From NCBI RefSeq assembly GCF_015277775.1, contig NZ_CP063849.1:2790001-2854000 (forward strand): a stretch of DNA of 64,000 nucleotides. Reading direction: 5' to 3'. The stretch comes from Paludibaculum fermentans. GTDB taxonomy: Bacteria > Acidobacteriota > Terriglobia > Bryobacterales > Bryobacteraceae. The position numbers were made by a program, and so were the translations under genes. Below the pieces are notes generated by a model, which was not told the DNA's origin, did no database searches, and was given only the letters and a program-made list of their open reading frames with translations. The first letter of the stretch is position 1; every line of letters begins with the position of its first letter. Positions 50,081-54,774 of the stretch are shown here, in pieces.

Positions 50081-50109
50081 TTGACGGATTCGGGAAGGTC
50101 GCTTAGGAT
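50081..50109 (+). promoter_or_regulatory. Sigma70-type promoter of small transcript B
   Basis: TTGACG (50081-50086) and TAGGAT (50104-50109) with a 17-bp spacer: five of six and four of six consensus matches. Transcription would start near 50116. Confidence 0.6.
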
Positions 50110-50123
50110 AAGGCCATCACTGA

Positions 50124-50141
50124 AGAAAGGAGGTGATCCAG
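50124..50141 (+). promoter_or_regulatory. 18-nt extended Shine-Dalgarno / anti-16S sequence
   Basis: AGAAAGGAGGTGATCCAG is the exact reverse complement of the widely conserved 16S rRNA 3' terminus CTGGATCACCTCCTTTCT. Ordinary ribosome-binding sites in this window pair over 4-8 nt. An ATG lies 6 nt after the segment. The 16S sequence of this organism is not in the window; the inner 14 nt are near-universal. Confidence 0.7.
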
Positions 50142-50146
50142 AGAAC

Positions 50147-50191
50147 ATGAGTACTGGTAGTTGTCACACGCGTGAGGTGGTCGACTGCTGA
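50147..50191 (+). CDS. 14-residue leader-type ORF
   Basis: ATG at 50147 follows the extended ribosome-binding segment and reads MSTGSCHTREVVDC before TGA. Two cysteines and no hydrophobic stretch. Coding status rests only on the ribosome-binding site; no family is recognised. Confidence 0.3.
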   Translation: MSTGSCHTREVVDC

Positions 50192-50301
50192 AGCTCAAAA
50201 CTGGTCACGCCTTGGCCCGACCTTCAGTGCAGGGCTAAGATCGTGCGCACCGGCCACTGAGCGCGATTCTAAAGCCATAGGCTTCAGAATCCAGGCTACC
50301 G

Positions 50302-50344
50302 AAGAGCCCGCCGCCGGAGTCCGGCCGCGGGCTCTTTCTGTTTT
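50302..50344 (+). terminator. Intrinsic terminator of small transcript B
   Basis: AAGAGCCCGC (50302-50311) pairs with GCGGGCTCTT (50327-50336), with an inner CCGG/CCGG stem, followed by TCTGTTTT. Confidence 0.85.
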
Positions 50345-50354
50345 GCTGCATCTT

Positions 50355-50382
50355 TTGGCACAGGATGCTTGTCTGCTATACT
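50355..50382 (+). promoter_or_regulatory. Promoter of rpmE
   Basis: TTGGCA (50355-50360) and TATACT (50377-50382), 16-bp spacer, with a TG one base before the -10 (extended -10). Five of six matches in each box. The predicted start leaves a short leader carrying AAAGGA before the ATG. Confidence 0.7.
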
Positions 50383-51627: not shown

Positions 51628-52239
51628 TCAACTGCCTGAATCCGCGGATTTCTCTTTCCGCTCCATGCCTTTGGCGCCCCGCGAAGACTCATACGCTTTT
51701 AGGACGCGCTGACGCGCCCGAAAGAGTCGGACTTTCAGAGCGTTCTCGTTGACATGATAGACCTTTTCCAGATCTTTCAGCGACAGCCCTTCCACTTCCT
51801 TCAACGTCAGCAGGGCACGGTCTTCTTCCGATACTTCGCTGAGCAGCGAATCGACGAATTCCCGTACCTTGGCCCGATGCAGATCGTCGACCTGCACCTT
51901 GGTTCCGGCCGAGGCATCGGCCAGCATGACAGCCTGCTCGCTGAGGTCGGACACCCGTGATTCCAGACGGCGTTTCCGCCGCTTCCGCAAGTAGTCCAGC
52001 GCCGCGTTGACTGTCAGCCGGTAGAGCCAAGGCTCGAAAACCTCCGGGCTTCTCAACTGATCCAGCGAATAATACAAACGCAGGAACACTTCCTGCGCCA
52101 CATCCTCCACATCCTCGGGACGCCCGATCAGACGGGAGACGGTCCCAAAGATCCGGCGCCGGTACGCCGTGACGACCTCGTTGAACGCAGCGGGATCGCC
52201 CGCCCGCGCTCGTTCCACAACTTCGAAGTCGACCAGCAT
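51628..52239 (-). CDS. ECF-type RNA polymerase sigma factor
   Basis: A 203-residue sigma70 of the RpoE/SigW group. Region 2 has DVEDVAQEVFLRLY near residue 43-56 and PWLYRLTVNAALDYLRKRRKR near 69-89 (in part). Region 4 has the helix-turn-helix LKEVEGLSLKDLEKVYHVNENALKVRLFRARQRV (in part, about 145-178). The ATG at 52239 is used; a TTG three codons upstream is possible. It heads a three-gene unit with the anti-sigma and CpxP-like genes, pointing to envelope-stress control. It is divergent from pcrA. Confidence 0.92.
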   Translation of the reverse strand: MLVDFEVVERARAGDPAAFNEVVTAYRRRIFGTVSRLIGRPEDVEDVAQEVFLRLYYSLDQLRSPEVFEPWLYRLTVNAALDYLRKRRKRRLESRVSDLSEQAVMLADASAGTKVQVDDLHRAKVREFVDSLLSEVSEEDRALLTLKEVEGLSLKDLEKVYHVNENALKVRLFRARQRVLKAYESSRGAKGMERKEKSADSGS

Positions 52240-52379
52240 TGGAGGCAAGGGAGCTGGCGCGACTCCTTAAATTTTCTAACAATAAGGCGCGCCTAGCCTG
52301 CACTCAGGTTACAACAATTCCCTACAAGACCGTTCGTGCCGCTAGATGCATGTTAAAATTGGAACTTAGCCCTTCCCCC

Positions 52380-54774
52380 ATGGATTTTCTCTCCGGCCTG
52401 AACCCCCAGCAGCGCGAAGCCGTGGCCCATGTCCAGGGCCCTCTTTTGATCCTCGCCGGCGCGGGCAGCGGTAAGACGAGGGTCATCACCCATCGAATTG
52501 CCCACCTGATCGATAGGGAAGGAATTTACGGCCCGTCCATTCTAGCAGTCACCTTCACTAACAAGGCATCCGGAGAGATGCGGGAGCGAGTTCTGAAGCT
52601 GTTGAACCACCTGCCGGCCGAGGCCGGTCCGATGGTGGCCACCTTCCACTCGTTCTGCGTACGCCTGCTGCGGCGCGACGGCGCCACCCTGGCCGACCTG
52701 CGGCGCAACTTCACCACCGGTTTCCACATCTACGACGACGACGACCAGCTCGCCCTGCTGAAGCAGATTTACAAGAAGCTGGGCCTGGACGACAAGTTCA
52801 TGCAGCACCGCGCGGCCCTGTCGCGCATCAGCCACTCCAAAAACCAGAAGCAGGGCCCGGCAGACCTCTACAAGATGTCGGCCGACCCGAAAGCGGCCAA
52901 GCTGGCCGTGGTTTTCGAGCACTACCAGCAGGGCCTGGAAGCGGCTAACGCCCTGGATTTCGACGACTTACTGCTGGAAGCCGTGCGCCTGCTGCAGTAC
53001 GACACCGAGGTCCGCCAGTTGTGGAACCGCCGCTTGCAGTTCCTGATGATCGACGAGTACCAGGACACGAACCGCTCGCAGTACGAGTTGATGCGGCTGC
53101 TGTCGGAAGCTCATTCAAACGTCGCGGTGGTCGGCGACGAGGACCAGATCGATCTACGGTTGGCGCGGCGCGGACATCCGCAACATTCTTGACTTCGAAA
53201 AAGACTATCCCGGCGCCAAGGTGATCCGGCTGGAGCAGAACTACCGCTCCACCAAGGTCATCCTGGAAGCTGCGTCGCGCGTGGTGGAACGCAACAAAGC
53301 CCGCAAGGGCAAGACGTTGTGGACCGACGGCGCCGACGGCGACCCCATCTGCTACCTGGAAGCAGCCGACGGCGAGCAGGAGGCCCTGTTCATCGCCGAC
53401 ACCATCGAGAAGATCTTCCGCAAAGAGCGCGATACGCGGGTGGCCATCCTCTACCGCACGAACTCGCAGTCGCGGCAGATTGAAGAGGCGCTGCGGCGCT
53501 ACATGCGCAAGTACGTCGTGGTGGGCGGCTTCAGCTTCTACCAGCGGGCGGAAGTGAAGGACACGCTCTCCTACGTCAAGTTCCTGATGAATCCGCGCGA
53601 CAACGTCGCCATGTTGCGGATCCTGAACGTGCCGGCGCGCGGCATCGGCAAAACCACGTCGGAGCAACTGGAGAAGATCGCGGCCGAGCGCGGCGAGACG
53701 CTGTGGGAAGCCATCGACACCTCGGAAAAGGAACACCTGCTGGGCGGACGCGCCGAGGCGGCCCTGGCGGCATTCCACCGGCTGATCGAGGAACTGCGCG
53801 ACGCCATGACCAGGCAGGGTCCGGACGAGACGATCAAGCAGATCCTGGACCGCACCGGTTACCGCAAGATGCTGGAGACCGACTCGTCACCCGAATCCGA
53901 GTCGAAGCTGGGCAATCTGGACGAACTCGTATCGGCAGCAGCCGATGCGGCCGAACGGGGCGACACCCTGCAGGACTTCCTGGACTCCGCGGCCCTGGTG
54001 GCGGATTCCGACGATATCGAGGAAGAGGCCCAGGTCTCGCTGTTGACGATGCACAACGCCAAGGGGCTCGAGTTTCCCTATGTGTTCATCGCCGGCATGG
54101 AAGAGGGCCTGTTCCCGCATTCGCGATCACGCGAAAGCGACGAGCAACTCGAGGAAGAGCGCCGGCTGTGCTACGTCGGCATGACGCGCGCGATGAAGCG
54201 GCTGTACCTGACGAGCGCCAAAATGCGGCGTAAGTACGGCGGATCGCCGCCGGAGCCGTGCCAGCCGTCGAGGTTCCTGGAAGAGGTGCCCAGCTCACTG
54301 GTGGAAGACCTGAGCGTGCAGCGCCAGCCGGCCGGTTCCATCGACCTTTATGGCGAGCGGGCGTCGGTGCGCGAAGTGGCGCGCCGAAATACGTATACTG
54401 GAAAGACATATAATTCGCTCGATCACATCTCGCAGTTCTTCGCCGACCGGGGCGTGCGCCCGCCAGCAATGGTGCCGCCACCCACGGCTCCGAGACCTGC
54501 GGGCGCGCCGGATCAGCGGGCGGCAGTAACGCCGCAGCCGCAACCGGCACAGGGGCAAACCGCGATGCGGCCACCAACGGCCGCGCCGGCCAGGCCCGCT
54601 CTGAAAAAGGGCGGTCTGCGGGCCGGCATGACGATCGTGCACCCCAAGTATGGCCGTGGCACCGTGCTGCGCAAGGAAGGCGAGGGTGAGGATGCAAAAC
54701 TCACAGTCAGCTTCCCTGGGCACGGCTTGAAGAAATTGATCGCCAAGTTCGCCGGCCTGTCGGCCAGTGAATGA
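52380..54774 (+). pseudogene. pcrA: UvrD/PcrA-family DNA helicase, single-base frameshift
   Basis: Two frames form one helicase of about 797 residues. The first runs from ATG 52380 through LNPQQREAVAH, Walker A GAGSGKT (near 26), the DEYQDTN box and VVGDEDQ. It then reads IDLRLARRG before a stop at 53192. The second frame resumes at the expected SIYGWRGADIRNIL and continues through QNYRST and the remaining UvrD motifs to the PcrA-type C-terminal Tudor-like domain (HPKYGRGTVLRKEGEG). One extra base at about 53148 (an A after the CAG of DEDQ) accounts for the break. PcrA unwinds DNA in repair and replication. Because the gene is normally essential or nearly so, sequence error is likely. Confidence 0.85.

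Follow-up and report, generated by a model that had tools for sequence, protein, structure and literature searches.

A short reading frame between two Shine-Dalgarno-like sites in a putative small RNA gene of Paludibaculum fermentans and its counterparts in other bacteria

The closest relative of the element analysed here is Ms_IGR-5 (Rfam RF02471), an actinobacterial small RNA (sRNA) to which no function has been assigned. In the accessible portions of the sources, homologs of Ms_IGR-5 are reported to be transcribed in Streptomyces lividans (PMC8079986), S. avermitilis (PMC8780764) and M. smegmatis (PMC10454040). Ribosome footprints on Ms_IGR-5 homologs were likewise described, in the part of that study available, for M. 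abscessus and M. smegmatis, and its authors cautioned that non-coding RNAs or RNPs can give footprints too (PMC4974804). The portion of the Rfam entry consulted labels the family an actinobacterial sRNA and mentions no ORF, and the accessible parts of the open-access literature on Ms_IGR-5 report transcription and footprints and yielded no description of an ORF or a mechanism. The Rfam consensus nonetheless runs from AAGGAGGUGGUCC through UUG.. to GUGAGGUGGCUGCCCGCUAG, which can be read as a first Shine-Dalgarno (SD) site, a mini-ORF, a second SD site and a stop codon. We refer to the two sites as SD1 and SD2.

Parts of the element

The order SD1, mini-ORF, GAGGUGG, stop codon is common to the Ms_IGR-5 consensus and to an element in the window, that is, in the whole 64,000-nt stretch of Paludibaculum fermentans DNA that was analysed. 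Searching the whole window against Rfam at the gathering score returned three tRNAs and nothing else. An earlier note on this DNA had described an 18-nt complement of the 16S rRNA 3' end that leads into a tiny ORF and a structured 3' region. All three parts are present, and the complement, the ATG at 50147 and the 14-codon ORF lie at exactly the positions that had been reported; SD2, a long-range helix and the wide conservation described below were absent from that account. The parts, in window coordinates, are these:

50081..50109, + strand: sigma-70-type promoter-like site, TTGACG-17-TAGGAT (consensus scan)
50116..50344, + strand: predicted structured RNA, length about 225 nt (fold z-score, DNA homologs)
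50117..50125, + strand: 5' tail, UCACUGAAG, complement of the hairpin-loop segment 50222-50229, pseudoknot-like (permutation test)
50124-50141, + strand: SD1, AGAAAGGAGGTGATCCAG, 18-nt complement of the 16S 3' end
50147..50191, + strand: mini-ORF, MSTGSCHTREVVDC, with ATG at 50147-50149, 14 codons and TGA at 50189-50191
50169..50183, + strand: 5' arm of helix P2, overlapping the ORF end and SD2 (outer-arm covariation)
50174-50179, + strand: SD2, GAGGUG, an anti-SD complement located 15 nt ahead of the stop codon
50201..50213, + strand: CUGGUCACGCCUU, a 16S-tail look-alike seen in the window's genus, partner of SD1 in the predicted minimum-energy fold
50215..50235, + strand: hairpin GCCC..GGGC, its loop containing CUUCAGUG (sequence, alignment)
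50251..50265, + strand: 3' arm of helix P2, CGGCCACU..GCGCG (covariation, P2-forced fold)
50304..50344, + strand: terminator-like hairpin with T-run, stem 50316-50335 (scan, fold)

The ends of the RNA are placed from the -10 site and from the terminator-like site. The predicted fold of the element has a z-score of -3.5, with 0/200 shuffles as stable, in agreement with the structured 3' region of the earlier account; near the element, two terminator-like sites were found against a mean of 1.2 in shuffles of the same region. Elsewhere in the window, two consecutive ORFs on the + strand (52239-53192 and 53221-54774) look like the frameshift-split halves of one helicase, which we take, from sequence alone, to be of the UvrD/PcrA type.

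The earlier description of SD1 as exceptional among ribosome-binding sites is borne out by its pairing energy. The duplex between SD1 and the 16S tail comprises 18 bp at -34.2 kcal/mol, the strongest among the stretches tested in a scan of both strands of the window (31-nt stretches, every 3 nt). For the 42 long ORFs, with every start within the first third of the ORF considered for an upstream duplex, the best duplex reached -20.3 kcal/mol and the median was -13.5 kcal/mol. SD2 pairs with the 16S tail more weakly than SD1 does (mean -13.1 vs. -31.1 kcal/mol). The window contains a single copy of the 16-mer AGAAAGGAGGTGATCC, at 0 mismatches; sites with up to three mismatches numbered 0.47 on average in shuffles, and 40/100 shuffles contained at least one. 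By eye, four loci from a Krumholzibacteriia bin and from Planctomycetota (L072, L202-L204) carry a downstream GGATCACC that looks like the true 16S tail and might hide SD1 within the RNA.

The organism's own 16S gene was not found, a search of its genome with RF00177 giving 0 matches, and the sole copy of GGATCACCTCCTTTCT in that genome, allowing up to one mismatch, is the antisense of the element. The objection that the 16S 3' end might differ in this lineage finds no support among relatives, whose tail is standard: TGCGGCTGGATCACCTCCTTTCT is present exactly in 3/21 searched genomes, one of the same family (G009) and two of the same order (G040 and G041), and the 16S tail was read in place in G009. 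An origin of SD1 as a remnant or antisense of a 16S gene was rejected, since the identity does not extend beyond 18 nt and the flanking sequence is not rRNA.

Relatives and the shared layout

With a 301-nt query, DNA homologs of the element were found in 30/61 genomes, a count that includes the organism's own genome and takes in the whole genus (nine genomes). Across the alignment of these 30 genomes the -35 and -10 hexamers look alike (by eye); the promoter-like site is conserved, and the element may be transcribed in P. fermentans. Both the long SD and the short ORF are kept in 30/30 homologs, own included. The distance from GAGGUG to the stop codon is 15 nt in 29/30; in the remaining homolog, L015, it is 14 nt and the site is read in another frame. 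At E <= 0.01, a covariance-model search of Acidobacteriota gave matches in 53/396 genomes, of which one or more are a 16S antisense, and the best 30 places of these matches were examined. Among 28 further acidobacterial loci chosen by the model, and not by the GAGGTG motif, 26 have GAGGUG at 15 nt; L054, which has no element, and L059, an antisense of a 16S end, are not members. GAGGTG is invariant, wobble positions included, in 56 acidobacterial elements, which were retrieved either through similarity to the entire element or with the model; both query and model contain GAGGTG. In five acidobacterial loci (L036-L039 and L046), an extra GAGGTG lies in the ORF 36 nt before the stop codon, besides the one at 15 nt.

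A scan across bacterial groups used the pattern AAGGAGGTGRTCC-N15-45-GAGGTGGC, which leaves start, frame and stop unspecified. Given that loci in other phyla were picked via SD1 and GAGGTGG, the presence of these motifs is no evidence, and only frame, start and stop were free to vary. At least 120 stretches of the genome_contigs collection matched, and among the matches listed the stop codon lies exactly 15 nt after GAG in 114/120. The matches listed come from Actinomycetota, Acidobacteriota, Planctomycetota, Krumholzibacteriia, Sumerlaeota, Nitrospinae, Nitrospirae, Zixibacteria, Spirochaetia and Deltaproteobacteria, names that were taken from sequence titles, which can be wrong for metagenome bins. 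A single Verrucomicrobiia match looks like chance, as does L076, a coding match, and carriage by viruses was rejected, since 4/4 viral pattern matches resemble ordinary coding sequence. The exact pattern is present in 21/119 actinomycetotal genomes, which is a lower bound. In Planctomycetota, 24/392 genomes match, and the elements of 23, all but L193, were parsed. In these 23 elements the stop codon follows GAG by 13-17 nt, and GAGGTGG is read in frame 0 in two, frame 1 in six and frame 2 in 15, seven of the last being near identical.

Loci from the 120 in genome_contigs and from the 23 parsed planctomycetotal places were pooled into 138 rows, which exclude L076, the duplicate L194 and elements too close to a contig end (L069 included). 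L174 and L200 denote one place but were retained as two rows, giving 137 distinct places, and L209-L215 are near identical. The common layout is SD1, an ORF of 10-19 codons, SD2 and a stop codon 13-18 nt after GAG. This last distance holds in 138/138 rows, 137 of them at 13-17 nt, compared with 1.7% of shuffles having a stop at 13-17 nt. In the elements analysed, the ORF starts 6-16 nt after GGAGG. For the 138 rows, all of which have the start 6-13 nt after GGAGG, the start was defined as the first ATG, GTG or TTG at a distance of 12-21 nt from the first A of AAGGAGG, or else CTG or ATC. That start window was narrowed post hoc, after L144 and L179 had been inspected; when it is widened by 2 nt, 136/138 rows fit. 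The start codons (n = 138) are TTG in 58, ATG in 40, GTG in 28, CTG in 10 and ATC in two. The 12 CTG and ATC starts (L063, L073, L088, L106, L111, L121, L136, L144, L154, L163, L176 and L179) each lie in frame, at a distance of 8 nt from GGAGG. By eye, more actinobacterial matches carry ATA or ATC at the start position. TAnnnT is found just upstream of SD1 in 100/138 elements vs. 1/138 at a control place, and terminator-like sites were detected by a simple scan in only 47/138. A model built from Bryobacterales alone, applied to 79 of 80 listed pattern-chosen loci, matched 76/79 at E <= 0.1, the exceptions being L067, L102 and L110; these matches support kinship across the groups, though they are helped by the choice of loci by pattern.

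Since SD2 is read in three frames, it is the distance from SD2 to the stop codon that is conserved, and not the peptide. As far as the aligned sequences tell, the constraint is on the end position of the ribosome relative to SD2, and translation of the mini-ORF is strongly implied. Very high peptide synthesis, which the earlier note had offered as one purpose, is unlikely: the frame and sequence of the peptide vary and the SD2-stop spacing stays, and the start codons are often weak (UUG, CUG, AUC).

Helix P2 and candidate roles

Helix P2 joins the last part of the ORF to a segment some 75 nt further downstream, and a hairpin loop inside P2 is a potential pairing partner of the 5' tail. The outer arm of P2 pairs more stably with its own partner than with the partners of relatives (-7.31 vs. 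-5.48 kcal/mol). Within the Bryobacterales, to which the covariation analysis was confined, and with incomplete correction for relatedness, outer-arm covariation was matched in 0/20000 permutations, both with 29 sequences and with one sequence per genus (n = 20). For the 5'-tail pairing, the corresponding values were 0/20000 and a weaker 85/20000. This fixed-register test of P2 skipped L015, and the 3' arm was probably misassigned in L030 and L023. An earlier test with free partner position was weak (425/10000, and 57/10000 on a subset of 22 sequences in which two genera still had two sequences each). Column-wise covariation on a MAFFT alignment was uninformative because the arms of P2 shift register. 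Taken together, covariation supports helix P2. The predicted minimum-energy fold of the window sequence instead pairs SD1 with the look-alike at 50201-50213. Forcing P2 gives -94.5 kcal/mol vs. -95.8 kcal/mol unconstrained, a cost of only 1.3 kcal/mol, and two states are therefore plausible. Judged by eye, the A/G variant of SD1 was not consistently coupled to a pairing GGA[CU] within the ORF.

We somewhat favor the view that the locus is a stand-alone small RNA gene, belonging to a widespread and fragmented family, that serves as a translation-dependent ribosome anchor. The layout is kept despite complete change of the peptide, suggesting that the RNA exists to capture and retain a ribosome. 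The 18-nt SD1 by the 5' end would capture a 30S subunit, with initiation on the mini-ORF. When the stop codon enters the A site, the last sense codon occupies the P site and GAGG ends 6-11 nt before it, mostly 8 nt (arithmetic on the 138 rows). The ordinary distance of a Shine-Dalgarno sequence falls in the same range. SD2 thus lies at a normal SD distance from the P site, and the 16S tail should therefore re-pair with it. Such re-pairing might cause a long pause, holding a terminating or recycling ribosome, or the 30S subunit left after recycling. Without a ribosome, SD2, or SD1 in the near-equal fold, would be paired within the RNA; a ribosome at the stop codon would cover the 5' arm of P2 at the ORF end, open the helix and free the 3' arm. 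Ribosome occupancy may in this way switch the structure, stability or trans activity of the RNA. The footprints reported on Ms_IGR-5 homologs agree with this picture; the weaker pairing of SD2, the detection of terminator-like sites in only 47/138 elements and the position of rpmE downstream of 19/30 homologs count against it. The earlier note had suggested that the site holds a ribosome for attenuation, and holding is the part that fits best, the ORF starting after GGAGG and stopping after a second GAGGUG.

Attenuation is far less probable. The element would then act in cis on rpmE (ribosomal protein L31), as its attenuator or leader. In the window rpmE starts about 60 nt past the terminator-like site; in 19/30 homologs an L31-like gene on the same strand follows within 1300 nt. 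However, rpmE is absent from 10/30 homologs with 1180 nt of downstream sequence (in one other the contig is too short), and in the window a promoter-like site of its own precedes it at 50355-50382, making a cis leader unlikely. Clustering of neighboring proteins at 80 pattern loci of other groups likewise revealed no downstream gene common to them; the largest cluster on that side has 10 members, all on the opposite strand. Of the readings considered, this is the one we find hardest to credit. A functional micropeptide, with the RNA acting as mRNA for a conserved peptide ending in approximately (R/S/C)-E-V-A, is improbable as well. EVA-like ends do recur in Acidobacteriota and Actinomycetota, where the frame is kept across varying ORF lengths, but the invariance of GAGGTG in the acidobacterial elements extends to wobble positions, and Planctomycetota and L015 use other frames that lead to RRW, RGG or other ends. 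Amino acids are not kept in preference to nucleotides, as they would be in a conserved small protein.

Two further readings are unlikely to a similar degree, and less so than the micropeptide. In one, the RNA is a sponge that titrates 30S subunits via SD1, and via SD2 as well, with translation of the ORF being incidental or renewing the binding. Two anti-SD sites, one of them the strongest 16S-tail match in the window, are consistent with this, and the frequent weak starts (TTG, CTG and ATC) would favor binding over synthesis. Pure binding has no need, however, for the observed constraint on the ORF end and on the SD2-stop distance, and a single gene (one exact pattern match per genome in 17/17 genomes of various groups) would face very many ribosomes. 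In the other, the RNA is an sRNA that acts in trans by base pairing once translation has exposed its 3' half, and the ribosome serves as a gate only. P2 sets an anti-SD-like 3' arm opposite SD2, and the stand-alone layout, with other groups sharing no downstream gene, points the same way; against this, the 3' regions differ strongly between groups.

The ribosome-anchor reading can be extended to a pan-bacterial RNA class of about ten named groups, in which two anti-SD sites flank a frame, the distance between the second site and the stop codon is fixed, and the peptide is irrelevant. Such an RNA could be a genetically encoded parking place for ribosomes, through which the pool of ribosomes in initiation or termination is sensed or controlled. 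We put this forward tentatively, as a serious possibility that falls just short of being probable. If it is true, pairing between mRNA and rRNA would be used at termination and not at initiation alone, a supposedly non-coding sRNA would be translated into a product without importance, and deliberate holding of ribosomes at a stop codon would become directly testable in bacteria.

Relation to described RNAs

Several described RNAs share parts of this design. The Caulobacter sRNA CC2171 (RF01867) has the same SD1 (GAAAGGAGGUGAUCCAG), with GUG directly after it. Matches to CC2171 are weak, at 20.7 bits for the window element, which does not reach the cut-off of 75, and 28.5 bits for L072. Four CC2171-like loci on Methylobacterium and Azospirillum megaplasmids (L217-L220) have GTG starts and ORFs of 24-26 codons that begin with SHC; GAGGTG follows SD1 in 0/4 of these alphaproteobacterial loci, which therefore lack the SD2-stop layout. 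The STAB-SD of Bacillus thuringiensis cry mRNAs, reportedly described by Agaisse and Lereclus in 1996, is said to be a 5' Shine-Dalgarno sequence that stabilizes RNA; to our knowledge, STAB-SD elements have neither a mini-ORF nor a second SD before a stop codon. Extended SD sites of Staphylococcus aureus are similar in their extended pairing close to the start and in their non-canonical start codons, but in the accessible part of the report they are the starts of mRNAs or small ORFs, with no stand-alone RNA that has SD2 at a stop codon (PMC13009471).

Ms_IGR-5 remains the closest of these RNAs. The window element scores 15.0 bits against the Ms_IGR-5 model, below the gathering cut-off of 45, and among 20 loci searched at E <= 1, only L018 (23.6 bits) and L022 (25.0 bits), both from Bryobacterales, match. 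Of ten loci from other groups, five match at the element at E <= 0.3, and a single one passes the cut-off. This is L099 from Zixibacteria, outside Actinobacteria, which scores 55.9 bits, and the label "Actinobacteria" of Ms_IGR-5 therefore looks too narrow. The 3' structure of Ms_IGR-5 differs from that of the window element. If the ribosome-anchor reading is right, Ms_IGR-5 and this unannotated acidobacterial locus would be one ancient RNA design.
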